Shown here in pieces: positions 5,597 through 19,159 of a DNA stretch of 21,540 nucleotides. Below the pieces are notes generated by a model. The model had not been told where the DNA came from and ran no database searches. It saw only the letters and a list, made by a program, of their open reading frames with translations. This DNA is from a virus. Position 1 is the first letter of the stretch, and each line of letters begins with the position of its first letter. A program made the position numbers and the translations under genes. Location: positions 1 to 21,540 of IMG/VR virus record IMGVR_UViG_3300030380_000377. The stretch is one strand, 5' to 3'.

Positions 5597-7629
5597 TGGC
5601 CAGGGTTACCCAGTATCAATCAAATTTTACTGTAGGTGAGATTGACCCTCTTCTACATGGCAGAATAGATATACAGCAATATGCATCAGCTTTAGAAAAA
5701 GCTCAGAATGTTGTTGTGCTTCCCCAAGGTGGTTTTGAAAGACGGCCTGGTCTTAGATTCATGCTGGATATATCATCTCACCTGGGTGGATCATTTACTA
5801 CCTTAGATGGTATTAGATTAGTTCCTTTTGAATTTTCTACGACACAATCCTATATGCTGGTGTTTGTTAAAAACACAACTAGCAATACCAGGATGTTTGT
5901 TTTTGCAAATGGACAACAGATAACCAACATCAATGGATCAGGCAATGACTTCCTTGTTTGTGCCTTGGGTGACATTGATCTTGATCGTATGTACTTTACT
6001 CAAAGTGCAGATACACTAATCCTGGTGCATGAGGATATGTCTCCTAAGTCTATTGTTAGAGGTGGTAGTAATTCAACCTGGACCTTTGCGACTATATCCC
6101 TCACCTCACCCAAACATGCTTTTACTTTATCTAGTAGCAATCCCTCTGCTACGATTACTCCGGATGCTGTAGACGGCACAGTCAACCTAACAGCTTCATC
6201 AGGAGTGTTTTCTGCAGGGAATGTTGATCAGTATATCAATGTTCTTAATGGTTTTGGAAGAGCCAGGATTGTAGAGTTTACATCATCGACTGTCGTTAAA
6301 GTTGTAACCGAGTTCCCCTTCTTTGAAAAAGACGTAGCTATAGCATCCGGTTCTTGGGAGCTTGAGCAAGGGTATGAAGATGTCTTTTCCAGCACTAGAG
6401 GTTTTCCAAGAACTTGTACATTCCATGAAGGAAGATTGTTTTTTGGTGGTAGTAAGTCTTTACCCAATGCTTTGTTTGGATCAAAGATAGGTGACTTTTT
6501 TAAATTTAAAACACATGAAGCCCTCGATGATGATGCCTTGTTTGTGACGATAGCGACCGATAGTGTCAATGCTATAACAGCTATGAGATCAGGAAGAGAC
6601 CTACAGATATTTACAACTGATGCTGAGTTCTTTGTACCCCAGGCTGATCTTGATCCTATCACACCATCTAACCTGGTTATTAAGAATGCGACAAGACGAG
6701 GATCAAAAGAAGGTATCAAGCCGGTGTCAGCAGAAGGTGGTACATTATTTATTCAAAGAGAAGGCAAGGCCCTAAGAGAGTTTTTATTTAGTGATGTTGA
6801 TCTAAACTACCAGGCTAATAATATCTCACTGCTATCATCTCATTTACTTAAAACACCAAGATCAATGGCATTGAGGGTTGCGACATCTACTGATGATGGT
6901 GATCTACTTTTAATTACAAATGATCAGGATGGCACAATGGGAGTGTTCTCAATACTGAGATCACAGAATGTTGTAGCTCCTTCAGAGTTCATCACAGATG
7001 GTAAGTTTTTAGACGTAGGTGTTGATATTACTGACATTTATGTTGTTACAGAAAGAACAATCAATAGTGCTACAAAACGATATGTTGAGATGTTTGACGA
7101 TCAAAGAACGACAGATGCCAACATACAATACTTCTCAGGGGCAACCAGCCCTGATCAATCTTTACCAGGTAATACAACTTGCTCCAACCTATCTCACCTG
7201 GAAGGCAAGACTGTAGATGTAGTAAGAGATAATTTTGTTTTGACTGACAAGACTGTTTCAAGTGGGGCTATAACTATAGATCAAGCACCCTCATCATTTG
7301 TTGAGGTTGGCCTTCCCTACACTGTCGAAGTCAAGACATTACCAGCAGAACCCAAGTTGTCATCCGGTGTGGTTGTTAGCCGGAAACGTAGAATATTAGA
7401 AGCTACACCAGTTTTAGACAGAACTCAGAATGTAGCCATCAATGGGTTTCAATGTGTCTTAGAATCTTTTCCTTATACATTAGGATCAGTACCTACGACA
7501 TTTACCGGAAGAAAAAGGATTGCTCCCCTACTGGGATACAGTGATACAGCACAACTTACATTTACACAAACACAACCTCTATTCGCTACTGTATTAGGAG
7601 TAGAGTACAAACTAAGTACTGGACAATAA
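5596..7629 (+). CDS. Tail tubular protein B (T7 gp12-like nozzle)
   Basis: 677 residues (T7 gp12 is 794). The N-terminus is diagnostic: QSNFTVGEIDPLLHGRID, then YASALEKAQNVVVLPQGGFERRPGLRF, a segment strongly conserved in podophage nozzle and stabilization proteins. The rest is beta-rich, with GYEDVFSSTRGFPRTCTFHEGRLFFGG (about residues 255-282), another signature of the family, in which a propeller-like platform forms the tail tube. Six copies would form the tail nozzle that passes DNA and to which fibres attach. It starts within the stop of tubular protein A and ends 1 nt before the first internal virion protein. No enzymatic domain is visible. Confidence 0.92.
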   Translation: MARVTQYQSNFTVGEIDPLLHGRIDIQQYASALEKAQNVVVLPQGGFERRPGLRFMLDISSHLGGSFTTLDGIRLVPFEFSTTQSYMLVFVKNTTSNTRMFVFANGQQITNINGSGNDFLVCALGDIDLDRMYFTQSADTLILVHEDMSPKSIVRGGSNSTWTFATISLTSPKHAFTLSSSNPSATITPDAVDGTVNLTASSGVFSAGNVDQYINVLNGFGRARIVEFTSSTVVKVVTEFPFFEKDVAIASGSWELEQGYEDVFSSTRGFPRTCTFHEGRLFFGGSKSLPNALFGSKIGDFFKFKTHEALDDDALFVTIATDSVNAITAMRSGRDLQIFTTDAEFFVPQADLDPITPSNLVIKNATRRGSKEGIKPVSAEGGTLFIQREGKALREFLFSDVDLNYQANNISLLSSHLLKTPRSMALRVATSTDDGDLLLITNDQDGTMGVFSILRSQNVVAPSEFITDGKFLDVGVDITDIYVVTERTINSATKRYVEMFDDQRTTDANIQYFSGATSPDQSLPGNTTCSNLSHLEGKTVDVVRDNFVLTDKTVSSGAITIDQAPSSFVEVGLPYTVEVKTLPAEPKLSSGVVVSRKRRILEATPVLDRTQNVAINGFQCVLESFPYTLGSVPTTFTGRKRIAPLLGYSDTAQLTFTQTQPLFATVLGVEYKLSTGQ

Positions 7630-7630
7630 C

Positions 7631-8179
7631 ATGACAGTAGCAGTCGCATCATTAGTATTAGCCGGAGTAAGTGCTTTTGCTCAGATAAAAGCCGGAGAAG
7701 CACAAAAGAAAGCACTCTACTCTCAGGCACAATTTAAGGAACTAGAGGGCCGTATAGAAGCAGTAAAGGCAAAAGAGCAAGGCACAAAAGCTTTGGAGAA
7801 TACAAGACGAGCTTTAGCTTCTGTAAATGCTACAGCTTTTGCTGGTGGCCTAGAGCCTACAATCGGCACACCGAATACATTTGCAATCAACAATATTATA
7901 AAACCTGGTACATCAGACTTTTTTACTGCAAGGGATAATGCATTCTTAGCAATAAGTTCTTCTCAGGCCCAAGCCGAAGATTTACGTTTTGCTGGAAGGC
8001 AAGCAAAGAAACAAGGATATATAAGTGCTTTAGGAACTATTGCTGGTGCTGGCTTGAACTATGCTTCATTAGGTGGTCCTGGAACTACTGGAACAACATC
8101 CACTAGCACAACATCCACAAGTATGACAAGAGGTCCAAGTCCTGGCTCTTATCAGGCAAGGTATAGTACATATGGCTAG
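7631..8179 (+). CDS. Internal virion protein (T7 gp14-like)
   Basis: 182 residues, close to T7 gp14 (196). It begins with a hydrophobic segment VAVASLVLAGVSAFA, followed by long Ala/Lys/Gln/Glu helices (GEAQKKALYSQAQFKELEGR; NTRRALASVNATAFAGGL), then a Gly/Thr/Ser-rich low-complexity tail. This pattern of hydrophobic start plus Ala-rich helix is shared by podophage gp14-type proteins, which are ejected first and form a pore in the outer membrane. Position just after the nozzle gene matches T7. The start has no clear Shine-Dalgarno and probably relies on coupling to the upstream stop. It overlaps the next gene by 8 nt. Confidence 0.75.
   Translation: MTVAVASLVLAGVSAFAQIKAGEAQKKALYSQAQFKELEGRIEAVKAKEQGTKALENTRRALASVNATAFAGGLEPTIGTPNTFAINNIIKPGTSDFFTARDNAFLAISSSQAQAEDLRFAGRQAKKQGYISALGTIAGAGLNYASLGGPGTTGTTSTSTTSTSMTRGPSPGSYQARYSTYG
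8093..8122 (+). repeat. Two-copy 15-bp tandem repeat
   Basis: ACAACATCCACTAGC is followed directly by ACAACATCCACAAGT (13 of 15 identical). It encodes a doubled TTSTS in the tail of the gp14-like protein and may vary in copy number between relatives. Confidence 0.7.
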
Positions 8180-10028
8180 AACAAGGTTTCAATCATTATC
8201 ATCTAGAATACAACTTGGTAATATCCAAGGGCCTTCCGGTATTGGAGCAAGAGAGCAAGGTAGGACATTGAGTTTGTTGAGCAGTGAGCTTAACAAAATG
8301 AGTAACTTTTTTTTCAAAAGAGCAGAAGCAGAAGCACAGATACAAGGTGAAAAATTTGGTGCTGAAAACACTCCGACTGTACAAGACTATCAAAAATCTA
8401 TAGCCAAAGGTGAGAACCCTTTAGAACAATTTGATAGAAAAACAGTTTTTGGATCATCTGCATTTAATCAGGTAGCCAAGACACTTGGTAACAGTCTGAT
8501 TGTTTCTGCTAGTAATCAAATGAATCAAAAGTTTCTAGAGGTCGAACAAACTCCAATAAGTATTGATGAATTTAAAAAAGACCTGAATGCAATAATTTTA
8601 GAAACATCCAAACTAGCATATGACATTTCACCTGGCATTGGTGAACAAGTAACATCTGATCTAAGTATTAAGGCTAATGGTCACTTCTACAAGTATGGTG
8701 TTCAGGTTAATAAAATTACAACTCGTGGTTTACAAAGTGGTGCAACATTAATTTTAGACAATCACCTTAATAATTTAGAGAGTGAGATAACAGCTATACT
8801 TCCAAAAAACACAGACACTGTAAATCAAAAAGAACTCGCACAAAAAATATATGGCAAGGGTGGTATCAAAGACAGTCTGTTAAACAAATACAGTCAAACA
8901 ATGGTTGGTGCTAGATTTGAAAAAGAAGCATTTAAATCAGGTGTAAAAGATTGGAACACAGCATTTAAGACAAGTATGTTCTCAACACTCAAAACATTGG
9001 CATTTAATAATTCAAAAGATTTATCAGACATAACAGATAATCTAAGAAGAGGTAAAGCCACTGGTGATAAAACTATAGATGCTTTGGTATCAGGATTGTC
9101 TTTAGGTGATCGGCAACAACTAGCCACTGAAATTACAGCTATGGCTAATAATCAAAACTCAATAGAAGATTTAGCTGATGAAGAAAAAAATAAGTTGGCT
9201 GGTCAGACAGCTTCAGAATTAGAAGTTAAAATTACTAACGATATACAGCAAGGTAAACCTCAAGCAACAATAACAGCAGATTTAGCTAAGTTAAAAAAAC
9301 TTGTTGATCTAGACGATGAAACAAATGCCTGGGAAACTCTAACAAAAATGAACAACAAGGCTGGTGGTGTAAGAACTGTTAGTGATGCTGTAACATTGAG
9401 AGACTTAACTAAGAAAGCTGGTTTTGGAACACTCACATATAAAGAACTTAATGAAAAGGCTGACCTATTAACACCCTCAGATTTTAACACTATACTTACA
9501 AAACTTAATGGACAGCAAACACAAAGCTTTGCAGATGCGAAAACTATACTAGCAAAAGAATTAGGATTTTTAGTTGATAGAGAAATAAGAGATAAGAAAG
9601 ATCCACAATATGCAAAAGGTGAAGTTTTTGTTCAGATACTAGGTAAACTGCAAGAACAAGAGTTGAACTACAATAAAACAAAAACCACTGCCGATGCTCC
9701 CTTTGATCATGTAAAAGCTGTGCAAGACTTAGTTAAAGTTGATGGTGAAATAATCTTACAAGAAATATTTACAAAAAAAAGAGATAGCTTCAAAAGAAAT
9801 TACTTTGACACATTTAGAAAGGAATATTCTGATTTAATAGCAAGTGGCGAGCCTATGACAAGAGATAATGTTTTGAAAATGGAAGATAAGCTTGAAGATA
9901 TGTTGAGTGATGTTGAACAAAGAAAAGGTTTGTTTTTGTCAGGTAACGAGAAAAAAGAAAAAGCAAGAATAGAAACATTTATATCAATTACAAAAAGTAT
10001 GCTTGCTGAAGAAAGGTTTAGCGAATGA
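8172..10028 (+). CDS. Internal virion protein (T7 gp15-like, helical)
   Basis: 618 residues, almost entirely predicted helical from composition, with no membrane segment. The N-terminal part NFFFKRAEAEAQIQGEKFGAENTPT (about residues 45-69) is a pattern seen in core and ejection proteins of marine podophages. T7 gp15 is 747 residues and forms, with gp16, the periplasmic part of the DNA-ejection conduit. Position between the gp14-like protein and two further large proteins gives the assignment; sequence alone gives no domain. It starts 8 nt before the upstream stop and ends in an ATGA overlap with the next gene. The DNA is more AT-rich here than in the head genes. Confidence 0.7.
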   Translation: MARTRFQSLSSRIQLGNIQGPSGIGAREQGRTLSLLSSELNKMSNFFFKRAEAEAQIQGEKFGAENTPTVQDYQKSIAKGENPLEQFDRKTVFGSSAFNQVAKTLGNSLIVSASNQMNQKFLEVEQTPISIDEFKKDLNAIILETSKLAYDISPGIGEQVTSDLSIKANGHFYKYGVQVNKITTRGLQSGATLILDNHLNNLESEITAILPKNTDTVNQKELAQKIYGKGGIKDSLLNKYSQTMVGARFEKEAFKSGVKDWNTAFKTSMFSTLKTLAFNNSKDLSDITDNLRRGKATGDKTIDALVSGLSLGDRQQLATEITAMANNQNSIEDLADEEKNKLAGQTASELEVKITNDIQQGKPQATITADLAKLKKLVDLDDETNAWETLTKMNNKAGGVRTVSDAVTLRDLTKKAGFGTLTYKELNEKADLLTPSDFNTILTKLNGQQTQSFADAKTILAKELGFLVDREIRDKKDPQYAKGEVFVQILGKLQEQELNYNKTKTTADAPFDHVKAVQDLVKVDGEIILQEIFTKKRDSFKRNYFDTFRKEYSDLIASGEPMTRDNVLKMEDKLEDMLSDVEQRKGLFLSGNEKKEKARIETFISITKSMLAEERFSE

Positions 10029-14974: not shown

Positions 14975-17962
14975 ATGGCTACATATGACGTAACAGATCA
15001 GACTTCAGCACGAAGAGTGCAATTTACCGGTAATGGCACTGCCGGACCTTTTGCTTTTGCCTTCCAGGTAAATGCTACAAGTGAAGTTAAAGTTTTTGTA
15101 GATACAACAGAAAAAACAGAAACAACTCATTATACAGTAACTTTAAATTCTAGCACTGGTGCTGGCACAATATCTTTTACAACTGGTAACCACCCTACTT
15201 CAAGTCAGACAATAACAATCCTAGGTGACATACCTTTATCCAGGACATCAGTTTATACATCCGGTGGCCAGTTTACAGCTTCATCTTTAGAATCTGACTT
15301 TGATACAAATATGTTCATACACCAGCAAACTAATGAAGAGATTAATAGATCATTAAGACAAGCAGAACATGATGTGATATCAGGTGCAGATATGACATTG
15401 CCAGTCAAGGATACCAGGAAAGGTACAGTTCTAGGTTTCAATGCAACAACTGGTAATCCTGAAGCTGGTCCAAATATAACTGCTGTACAAAGTTTAGCTG
15501 ATGTAACAACAGCCATAAATTTATTAGGTACATCAGATGTAGTAACTGATATGGGGTTGTTAGCTACAAGTGCAAATGTCACTGCTATGGGATTGTTAGG
15601 AACAAGCTCAAATGTGACTGCGATTGGATTGTTGGGTACTAGTGATGTTGTGGCAGATATGGCATTGCTTGGAACTTCTGATGTTGTTGCAGACATGGCA
15701 TTACTTGCTGACACAGATGTCATAGCTGACATGAATACACTTGCAACTAGTGATATAATTTCAGACCTTAATACTTTGGCAACAAGTGACATTGTCACTG
15801 ATATGAATTTGCTTGCTACATCTGACAATGTAACAGCTATGGGCATACTAGGTACTTCAGCGAATGTTACTGCTATGGGCTTGCTAGGCACAAGTGCAGT
15901 AGTAACTGATATGGGGTTGTTAGCAACATCTACTGTTATAGAGGACATGGGTATATTAGCAACATCTGCAAATGTCACAGCTATGGGATTACTGGGAACA
16001 TCTTCTAATGTTACGGCAATGGGTCTTTTAGGAACGAGTGCAGTGGTAACGGATATGGGGTTATTGGCTACTAGTGCAGTCATAGAGGATATGGGCTTAT
16101 TGGCAACTAGTGCAAATGTAACTAATATGGCTACATTAGGTGCTAGTGGTGTTGTTGCTAATATTGCTACAGTTGCATCTAATGTATCAGGTGTTAATAG
16201 TTTTGCTGAAAGATATAGAGTACAAGCTGGAGTGCCAGGGTCTGACAATGACATTGGTGATTTAGTCTTTGATACTACTGCAAACACACTAAAAGTTTTT
16301 GGATCAAGTGGTTATCAAAATGCTGGATCATCAGTAAATGGCACATCAGAAAGATTTACATATAATATTACTGGCACACCAACAACATTAACTGGTGCAT
16401 CAGGAACTGGATTTGCAGAAGCTAATGGTAATACTTTAGCATATGATGCTGGGTTTATTGATGTATACCTAAATGGTGTAAAGATGGTAAATGGCACAGA
16501 TGTCACTGTTACATCAGGAACTTCTGTTGTTTTTGCTAGTGCATTATCTAATGGTGATGTTGTTGATATTGTTACGTTTGGAACATTTAGTGTGGCAAAC
16601 ATTGTGTCTACTGGTGCATTGAACTCAGGCTCAATCACAAGTGGCTTTGGTAATATAGATAATGGATCAAGTACAATTACAACTACTGGTGCTATTACTG
16701 GTGGCACATTAACTGGTACATTACAAACTGCTTCACAAACAAATATAACAAGTGTTGGCACTTTATCAGGACTTGCAGTAAGTGGTGCAACTACAATAAC
16801 TACTGCTGATAATACTGCACAATTAACTTTAAAATCTACTGATGCAGATGCAAACTCTGCACCTTTATTAGATATGAAAAGAGATAGCTCAAGTCCTTCT
16901 GCTGATGATTTTCTAGGTCAAATAAATTTTATAGGTGAAAATAATGCAAGTGAAGAAACAACATACTCACAAATAACTGGAAGAATTGAAGATGTTACAG
17001 ATGGTGCTGAAGATGGTAGACTAACTTTAAAAACAATGAGAGCAGGAAGTTCAAGGTCAGCAATAGATTGTAGAATTGATTCAATCACAATTAATGATGA
17101 TGGTGATGATGTAGATTTTCGTGTTGAAGCTGTTGGATTTAATAATGCTCTACTAATACGAGGTAGTGATGGTAATGTTTTTGTAGGAAAAAGTAGCACA
17201 AGTGCTTCAGTACAAGGATTACAATTAAGAACTACCACTGCTAATGGTAATGCTATTACTGCAAATAGCTCAACAGTATTAAGAATAAACAGACAATCTG
17301 ATGATGGTGACTTACTACATTTTTTACAAGCAAATAATAAAGAGGGTGGTGTATCAGTAAGTGGTAGCACTGTTTTTTATAATACTTTTACTGGCTCACA
17401 TTGGAGTAGATTATCTGATAATTCAAAGCCAACAATTTTAAAAGGAACTGTTATTGAAACCATTGACGAGATGTGTGATTGGTATCAAGCAGAATTTACT
17501 ATGGAAGAAGCAACAAAAGATACACCAAAAGTAGTAGAAAAAATATCCATAGCATTACCAAAAGGTAAGTCTGTAGGTGATAAGATTTCAATTACACACG
17601 AAGGTGTTACCTATGATGATGCAACAATATTAAAAGAAAAGGATAACAAACATCCCAAATGTAAAATATCAGACACAGCAGATAGTAAAAAAGTTTATGG
17701 AGTATATTCAGCTTGGGATAATGATGATGATGCAGTTAATGATATGTTTGTTACAGCAGTTGGAACTTATGTAGTAAGAATCAATAAAGATGTAACAGTA
17801 CAAGCTGGTGACTTACTTTCGTCTAATGGTGATGGCACAGCTAAAGTGCAAGATGATGACATTATTAGAAGTAAAACTATAGGCAAAGTATTAACAAAAA
17901 TAAAACAAGAAACTTATGATGATGGTAGTTATACAGTTCCTTGTGCATTGTATTGTGGGTAG
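14975..17962 (+). CDS. Tail fibre with T7 gp17-like N-terminus and 12-residue repeats
   Basis: 995 residues. Residues 1-170 match the T7 gp17 N-terminal tail-attachment domain (RRVQFTGNGTAGPFAFAF; HYTVTLNSSTGAGTISF; FDTNMFIHQQTNEEINRSLRQAE). Residues 182-397 are 18 tandem 12-residue repeats of the form GLL(A/G)TSxxVTxM, probably a trimeric shaft. Beyond these come FDTTANTLKVF, a beta module FTYNITGTPTTLTGASGTGF, a module GTLQTASQTNITSVGTLSGL (about 580-600) common in phage fibres, and DDVDFRVEAVGFNNALLIRG (about 710-729), which is shared with the next gene. The last 190 residues, from FTGSHWSRLSD (about 806), resemble a C-terminal intramolecular chaperone domain of the peptidase G2 type, ending YCG. 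GAGAGG lies 8 nt before the ATG. The protein would bind the host receptor. The C-terminal assignment is moderate. Confidence 0.88.
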   Translation: MATYDVTDQTSARRVQFTGNGTAGPFAFAFQVNATSEVKVFVDTTEKTETTHYTVTLNSSTGAGTISFTTGNHPTSSQTITILGDIPLSRTSVYTSGGQFTASSLESDFDTNMFIHQQTNEEINRSLRQAEHDVISGADMTLPVKDTRKGTVLGFNATTGNPEAGPNITAVQSLADVTTAINLLGTSDVVTDMGLLATSANVTAMGLLGTSSNVTAIGLLGTSDVVADMALLGTSDVVADMALLADTDVIADMNTLATSDIISDLNTLATSDIVTDMNLLATSDNVTAMGILGTSANVTAMGLLGTSAVVTDMGLLATSTVIEDMGILATSANVTAMGLLGTSSNVTAMGLLGTSAVVTDMGLLATSAVIEDMGLLATSANVTNMATLGASGVVANIATVASNVSGVNSFAERYRVQAGVPGSDNDIGDLVFDTTANTLKVFGSSGYQNAGSSVNGTSERFTYNITGTPTTLTGASGTGFAEANGNTLAYDAGFIDVYLNGVKMVNGTDVTVTSGTSVVFASALSNGDVVDIVTFGTFSVANIVSTGALNSGSITSGFGNIDNGSSTITTTGAITGGTLTGTLQTASQTNITSVGTLSGLAVSGATTITTADNTAQLTLKSTDADANSAPLLDMKRDSSSPSADDFLGQINFIGENNASEETTYSQITGRIEDVTDGAEDGRLTLKTMRAGSSRSAIDCRIDSITINDDGDDVDFRVEAVGFNNALLIRGSDGNVFVGKSSTSASVQGLQLRTTTANGNAITANSSTVLRINRQSDDGDLLHFLQANNKEGGVSVSGSTVFYNTFTGSHWSRLSDNSKPTILKGTVIETIDEMCDWYQAEFTMEEATKDTPKVVEKISIALPKGKSVGDKISITHEGVTYDDATILKEKDNKHPKCKISDTADSKKVYGVYSAWDNDDDAVNDMFVTAVGTYVVRINKDVTVQAGDLLSSNGDGTAKVQDDDIIRSKTIGKVLTKIKQETYDDGSYTVPCALYCG
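15518..16165 (+). repeat. 18 tandem 36-bp (12-codon) repeats in the fibre shaft
   Basis: Eighteen in-frame copies, consensus GLLxTSxxVTxM. Units 10-13 and 14-17 match each other unit for unit, which suggests a 144-bp higher-order duplication (about 15842-15985 and 15986-16129). Units with the same protein sequence differ at many synonymous sites: units 11 and 15 both read GLLGTSAVVTDM, but one uses GGC TTG CTA and the other GGT CTT TTA. The last unit (ATLGASGVVANI) is degenerate. Confidence 0.92.
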
Positions 17963-17971
17963 GAGTGCATA

Positions 17972-19159
17972 ATGACAAGAGCAAGAGATATATCAAACGT
18001 AATAACTGATGCAGATTTGGCTGGTGACATTGATGTAGATGGCACAACTAATCTTGATGTTGTGGATATTGATGGTGCATTAACACAAGATGGTGGAGCA
18101 GTATTTAATGAAGATAGTGCAGACGTAGATTTTAGAGTTGAGTCAAATGGTGAAGCAAATATGCTTGTTGTTGATGGTGGAAACAATGCAGTTGTAATTG
18201 GGGAGTCTGCACCTGATACAAGTATTAGTGGTGGAACTCCTGCTTTTCAAGTTATTGGAAGTGCAATTGATTCTTTCATGTCTTTAACAAGAAGAGTGGC
18301 GTCTGCTTCTGCACCAGTTTTAGGATTAACAAAAAGTAGGAACACAAGTGTAGGTTCTCATACTATAGTACAAAATGATGATACAATAGGAGAAATTGTC
18401 TTTTTTGCAGATGATGGAACAGACTTTGATTCAAGGGTTGCAACTATAAAAGCTGAAGTTGATGGTACTCCGGGTGCAAACGACACTCCGGGCAGATTAG
18501 TTTTTATGACGTCAGCAGATGGCTCAAACTCACCAACACAACGTATGAAAATAGAAAGCAATGGTAATGTTATATTTGGTGCAAGTACTTTTGGTGCAGA
18601 TGATTCAATCGGATTAGCTACTGGTGGAACAATTTTTAGTACTAAAGCTAGTTCTGGTGGCACAACACATTTAAATATTCAAAATGGTGGAAGCCAAGTA
18701 GGTGGTATAACTTCTAATACTGGTGCAACATTTTTTAATACTTCTAGTGATTACAGATTAAAAGAAAACGTAACATACAACTTTGATGCTACAACTAAAC
18801 TAAAACAATTAAAACCATGTAGATTTAATTTTATTGTAAATAAAGATGATACAGTAGATGGTTTCTTAGCACATGAGGTATCAAGCATTGTTCCAGAAGC
18901 TATAAGTGGAGAAAAAGATGCGACTAAAGATGTGCCAAATGTTGTTCTTAATGCAGATGGTACAATAAAAGCACAAGGTATATCTCAACAAGATTGGATA
19001 CAAGGTAAGTCTGATGGAACTTATGCGAATGAAACTACTTGGGTTGCTAGTAAAAATATTATAGATGCACAAGGCATAGACCAAAGCAAGTTAGTGCCTT
19101 TACTCGTAAAAACCATACAAGAATTAGAAGCTAGAATTACAGCACTGGAGAATGCATAA
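17972..19159 (+). CDS. Tail fibre/spike with C-terminal S74 chaperone domain
   Basis: 395 residues. It has no T7-like attachment domain: the N-terminus RARDISNVITDADLAGDIDV is short and Asp-rich. A module SADVDFRVESNGEANMLVVD (residues 49-68) closely matches a module in the fibre encoded just upstream. The middle is beta-rich and Gly/Thr/Ser-rich. The C-terminal domain is a peptidase S74 intramolecular chaperone: SSDYRLKENV at 258-267, with Ser259 and Lys264 spaced like the Ser-Lys catalytic pair of endosialidase-type chaperones, then FLAHEVSSIVPEA and a final coiled coil LVKTIQELEARITALENA. It would trimerise and then cut itself off. AGGAG at 17961-17965, overlapping the upstream stop, lies 6 nt before the ATG. 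It may attach to fibre 1 or be a separate receptor protein. Confidence 0.88.
   Translation: MTRARDISNVITDADLAGDIDVDGTTNLDVVDIDGALTQDGGAVFNEDSADVDFRVESNGEANMLVVDGGNNAVVIGESAPDTSISGGTPAFQVIGSAIDSFMSLTRRVASASAPVLGLTKSRNTSVGSHTIVQNDDTIGEIVFFADDGTDFDSRVATIKAEVDGTPGANDTPGRLVFMTSADGSNSPTQRMKIESNGNVIFGASTFGADDSIGLATGGTIFSTKASSGGTTHLNIQNGGSQVGGITSNTGATFFNTSSDYRLKENVTYNFDATTKLKQLKPCRFNFIVNKDDTVDGFLAHEVSSIVPEAISGEKDATKDVPNVVLNADGTIKAQGISQQDWIQGKSDGTYANETTWVASKNIIDAQGIDQSKLVPLLVKTIQELEARITALENA

Follow-up and report, generated by a model that had tools for sequence, protein, structure and literature searches.

The fibre gene and its surroundings

The window, meaning the whole 21.5-kb stretch of DNA analysed here, is a fragment from a marine phage with a short tail (a podovirus). 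Among phage records, its head-tail adaptor is closest to that of Methylophilales phage MEP301 (57.7%), followed by Pelagibacter phage Hodr (34%). An open reading frame at 14975-17962 on the plus strand encodes a tail fibre of 995 amino acids. PHROG 21412 (tail fiber protein) matches residues 198-614 with an E-value of 1.8e-19, PHROG 1640 (tail protein) matches residues 12-128 at 1.1e-9, and a tblastn search with the fibre matched 89 phage records, with tail fibre being the annotation of most among the matches listed.

The protein begins with a conserved N-terminal anchor of about 163 residues (14975-15463), which has relatives at 34 loci in IMG/VR. In a profile search of the PDB, it matched the N-termini of phage tailspikes Dpo31 and Dpo36 (E 8.9e-18), which, together with the PHROG 1640 match, identifies it as a podoviral fibre or tailspike anchor. 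PF03906, the N-terminal domain of the phage T7 tail fibre, gave no match to the window N-terminus at E-values up to 1; it matches two related fibres, L120 and L121, with 95 and 105 bits. The anchor is followed by a linker at 15464-15517, which is the site where anchor and shaft switch and the last part of which is a degenerate unit, AVQSLADVTTAI. Next come 18 tandem 12-residue shaft units (15518-16165), of which unit 18 is degenerate, and a transition out of the array, ATVASNVSGVNS (16166-16201).

Downstream of the shaft lies a conserved domain (AERYRV...FGNID, 16202-16660) that is common to many marine phage fibres: at least 569 relatives are encoded among the 600 matched IMG/VR stretches listed, pelagiphage fibres included. 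The gene ends in a C-terminal tip module (residues 603-995, 16781-17962), and similar modules occur in pelagiphage genes annotated as hypothetical protein. The C-terminal sequence of the fibre had no match in the PDB. A second fibre-like gene follows on the same strand (17972-19159), with matches to PHROG tail fibre families and an S74 chaperone-type C-terminus (PF13884, 28.2 bits against a cutoff of 22). Three window proteins searched against NCBIfam had no match. With its tandem repeat set between a conserved anchor and C-terminal modules, the first gene has the layout of a repeat-shaft tail fibre.

The ends of these two adjacent genes are swapped relative to those of a related locus, L001 (genes at 6001-8649 and 8649-9983). 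The first window fibre ends in the module that closes the second L001 gene (73% identity), and the second window gene ends in the S74 module that closes the first L001 fibre (55%), with the starts of both genes conserved between the two. When 139 fibre genes were scanned for motifs, the tip module (module X) in first place with S74 in second was found only in the window, and the reverse only in L001.

An array of 12-residue units

The 18 units share a consensus of roughly xLLxTSxxVxxM and remain in register throughout the translation. Over the best 216-residue stretch, 66.7% of residues match at a period of 12, whereas 500 shuffled versions of the fibre reached 16.7% at most. This agrees with the tandem array described in the original prediction. 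TRF likewise reports periodicity, at 36 and 144 bp. Calling the protein repeat near-perfect, as that prediction did, is too strong: any two units average 57% identity at the protein level and 58% at the DNA level, only 1 of 153 unit pairs is identical in protein, and only position 3 (Leu) is invariant. Positions 7, 8, 10 and 11 alternate among a few residues. The identical pair, units 11 and 15, does differ in DNA as had been claimed (78% identity, 4 of 11 codons in common).

A higher-order duplication of 48 residues had also been proposed for units 10-13 and 14-17. The order of the protein units supports it, with 90% identity between the blocks, a value equalled or bettered in only 0.13% of random unit orders. 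The DNA carries no trace of it beyond this protein constraint: codons agree at 12 of 39 positions (31%, against 38% expected), with a pS of 0.73 and a pN of 0.10. If the two blocks do stem from a duplication, it would be an old one.

An antisense open frame of 344 amino acids (15253-16287, minus strand) spans the array and is also long in L042, L044 and L129. In 500 random synonymous recodings of the fibre, the open stretch in this antisense frame averaged 288 amino acids and 3.4% of recodings reached the 352 observed. The open frame therefore follows mostly from the protein sequence, and it was rejected as a gene.

Age and inheritance of the units

Silent sites between units behave as codon usage alone would predict. 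Two units that share a residue encode it with the same codon 343 times out of 949 (36%), and drawing codons at random from the usage of the phage also gives 36% (0.361 against 0.356, z +0.23). This agreement with expectation indicates that silent sites between units are saturated, and pS between paralogous units is 0.69-0.73.

The scrambling had tentatively been attributed in part to selection against DNA identity between units, which would prevent their loss by recombination. The stable copy number of the array would suit such selection, and, when the rest of the fibre gene serves as the yardstick, codon agreement in the window falls 2.4 SD below prediction (2.7 SD with pooled pseudo-counts). 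Relative to genome usage, the codons for Gly, Val and Asp are also more mixed. However, those for Leu, Ala, Asn and Ser are less mixed, and the deficit disappears against genome-wide usage, as given above, and against the array's own codons (z +0.34). Across 102 non-redundant related arrays of at least six units each, the mean z was +0.46; it exceeded 2 in 12 arrays and was less than -2 in 6. Neighbouring units agreed slightly more often than expected (0.451 against 0.412). Some arrays even retain DNA-identical units. For instance, units 7-9 and 16-18 of L154 are 97-100% identical, a fresh block duplication in another phage. Avoidance of DNA identity was therefore rejected as a general rule and is an improbable explanation for the window; age alone accounts for the scrambled codons, and no such selection is needed.

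Comparison with relatives shows how the units have been passed on. The N-terminus of L001 is 97% identical to that of the window, and the DNA alignment pairs 12 of the 18 window units in order with L001 units. Of 119 residues that paired units have in common, 83 use the same codon. For ten of the window units (1 and 4-12), a set that leaves out 2 and 3 as unpaired and 13 and 14 as doubtful, dS is 0.50 and dN 0.040. In 14 orthologous array pairs drawn from the flank-aligned pairs described below, dN/dS ranges from 0.019 to 0.46, with a median of 0.076. The units are thus old, have been inherited one by one and are under purifying selection at the protein level, which upholds the predicted combination of old duplication and protein selection.

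Copy number among relatives

In total, 281 loci including the window were compiled, of which 186 have at least three consecutive units and 179 of these are uncut. The 141 distinct complete arrays hold between 4 and 30 units. Two viral-contig searches drew on resemblance to 12-mer shafts and yielded the best 80 of 560 and the best 80 of 207, respectively, so this range describes such shafts and not fibres as a whole. Flanks of at least 300 bases on both sides are present in 161 arrays, and these give 90 pairs, drawn from different contigs, that can be aligned over both flanks.

Copy number is equal in 85 of these 90 pairs, which are not independent as contigs are shared among them. The counts come mostly from assembled metagenomes, presumably built from short reads, in which arrays with differing units are probably easier to resolve than uniform ones, so they are biased in favour of the former. 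By flank identity, equal numbers were found in 38 of 39 pairs at 95% or above, 10 of 11 at 90-95%, 24 of 25 at 80-90% and 13 of 15 at 65-80%. The unequal pairs are L222/L272 (differing by 2), L136/L177 (by 13), L001/window (by 4), and L160/L179 and L164/L179 (by 1 each). Supporting long-term stability, L178 and L260 both have 18 units despite a dS of 1.58. The cultured phage Skadi has 8 units in each of three isolates (nine among the matches listed), with 1-6 differences per 5462 bases.

These counts bear on the suggestion that fibre length could be tuned by copy number. In its strongest form, the array would be a contingency-type locus, where slippage quickly alters copy number and with it the reach of the fibre. 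The 4-30 span would fit, as would the 18, 14 and 10 units of the window, L001 and L002, whose N-termini are 94-97% identical. Nevertheless, near-identical relatives almost always agree, as the pairs with the most similar flanks, L178/L260 and Skadi show, and the longest exact repeat within the window array is 26 bases. Rapid change was therefore rejected, and contingency-type variation is very unlikely. Length does differ widely between lineages, but its near-constancy in close relatives points to slow evolution instead of rapid tuning. The present stability may result from units lacking long mutual DNA identity, which would keep slippage low. The opposite picture, a fixed ancient shaft of constant copy number with units aligning one-to-one, also holds only in part: units do align one-to-one with the closest relative, but copy number varies across relatives.

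One anchor with several shafts

The same anchor carries different rods in different phages. Among the 34 anchor loci, 9 have 12-mer arrays (6 of them with 10-mers too), 8 have only 10-mers of the ISSNVTTVAG kind, and 8 have collagen-like runs of at least six G-X-Y triplets (one with 10-mers too). A further 6 have weak runs of 4-5, 2 have other sequence and 1 is cut off. DNA alignment with the window extends beyond base 15400 in 23 of the 34 loci, and 19 of these 23 alignments stop within 15463-15467, roughly 50 bases short of unit 1. For example, L008 and L011 are 90-93% identical to the window from about 12051 to this point, where the alignment stops. In L002, identity of 91% continues to 15707 (the start of unit 6), after which only a weak 72% match resumes at 15934.

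Judging from these alignments, swapping of the shaft beside the anchor may be the main way in which rod type and length change. Recombination would be the likely route, bearing in mind that the end of a local alignment is no proof of a recombination point.

Several relatives combine 10-mers and 12-mers within one fibre. In pelagiphage Bylgja (L120, 3076-3465), two 12-mer blocks of 6 and 4 units lie 30 bases apart, the length of one 10-residue unit.

Structure and role of the shaft

A trimeric coiled coil would show a long helix with a coiled-coil period, and twelve residues is not a usual one. AlphaFold2 monomer modelling of the window shaft, run with 18 relatives, predicts roughly one short helix in each unit, with breaks close to the TS residues. 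Mean pLDDT is 59.6, rising to 70-85 where the array is modelled best, and pTM is 0.22. The 12-mer arrays of other phages (40 sequences) were modelled as a nearly unbroken helix, with a mean pLDDT of 88.4 and a pTM of 0.37. Searches of the PDB by sequence and by fold gave no convincing match for the shaft; the fold search did return fibrinogen, but weakly, with a Z of 3.4 and an rmsd of 6.8 across 122 residues. A Foldseek search of BFVD returned eight viral proteins at E-values up to 0.001 with query TM-scores of at most 0.28, including the tail fibre of pelagiphage HTVC019P.

The array is most likely an ordinary spacer shaft between the tail and a receptor-binding tip. That it is mainly a receptor-binding or enzymatic region is highly improbable: the variable unit positions could form binding surfaces, but the repeat is regular, predicted to be helical and placed between a conserved anchor and separate C-terminal modules, dN/dS across the array is low, and relatives with the same anchor bear collagen-like or 10-mer repeats instead.

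Taken together, the array is probably the shaft of a tail fibre, presumably homotrimeric, built from old duplicated units that are stable in number and subject to rare block changes or replacement of the shaft. The N-terminal anchor would hold the fibre at the short tail, with the 18 units forming an extended, mainly helical rod of perhaps 30 nm and the C-terminal modules folding the putative trimer and binding the host. The units would go back to old tandem and block duplications, which would also have set the length. Each unit would then have diverged alone, with silent sites saturating and the protein held by purifying selection. Changes in copy number would be rare and take one of two forms: blocks would be gained or lost, or recombination beside the anchor would replace the shaft as a whole. 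The data themselves show the array, its saturated silent sites, purifying selection, the stable numbers among relatives and the different shafts on one anchor, whereas trimeric assembly, the spacer role, the functions of the tip, low slippage as the cause of stability and recombination as the route of exchange are all inferred.

A broader reading makes the 12-residue unit the mark of a helical rod class that has not yet been described and occurs widely in marine phages, with short helices resetting every 12 residues. Recombination at a single fixed site following the anchor would swap this rod, as a cassette, for collagen-like and 10-residue ones. This reading is conceivable but on balance doubtful. 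If true, rod type and length would be exchanged between phages as modules independent of anchor and tip.

In arrays of the NTLATSDIVSD(L/I) kind (L222, L272 and related arrays), Ile at position 12 is mostly isolated between Leu units. The two alternate in 97 of 148 steps against 74.6 expected, a value that none of 2000 shuffles reached. This hints at a longer structural period, but related arrays share the pattern.

Relation to known fibres

The general kind of fibre was published in 2014: pelagiphage fibres have a T7-like N-terminus followed by fibre-specific repeats and a variable C-terminus, an arrangement said there to suggest a secondary structure like that of T7 (Mizuno et al. 2014, PMC3909814). 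The window fits this kind in having an anchor and fibre-specific repeats, and differs in that its anchor has no PF03906 match. The passages of that paper examined here do not touch on how long the units are, how many there are, their codons or any swapping of shafts. Titles and abstract openings of the open-licence papers listed did not name the 12-residue unit, and no account of its codon behaviour, of copy-number counts or of one rod type replacing another was found in these searches.

Among cultured pelagiphages, Skadi and Bylgja have the same 12-residue unit under the scoring used for the window, with fewer units in both. Bylgja shares the post-shaft domain with the window, and differs in its PF03906 anchor and the gap between its two blocks. 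Of 16 named phage records examined, these (three Skadi records and Bylgja) were the 4 with arrays of at least three units. Methylophilales phage MEP301, the nearest cultured phage judged by the head-tail adaptor, has an anchor related to that of the window (40% identity), and its fibre has Ala/Ser/Thr-rich repeats instead of a 12-mer array. The LED repeat family of Pfam (PF20854) matches the window shaft with an E-value of 3e-8, but the score of 34 bits lies below the curated cutoff of 59, as do those of L222, L023 and L154 (27-32 bits).

The shafts of marine phage fibres thus differ greatly in length between lineages and are inherited faithfully over short times, and their scrambled codons call for no special selection. 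With at least three rod types on one anchor, these fibres form a natural panel in which the effects of rod type and length on adsorption could be tested.

One of the database records appears to be mislabelled. Limnohabitans phage DC33 (L285, PQ492659) is assigned to the Inoviridae, yet its record is 39 kb long and contains a tail-fibre-like gene.
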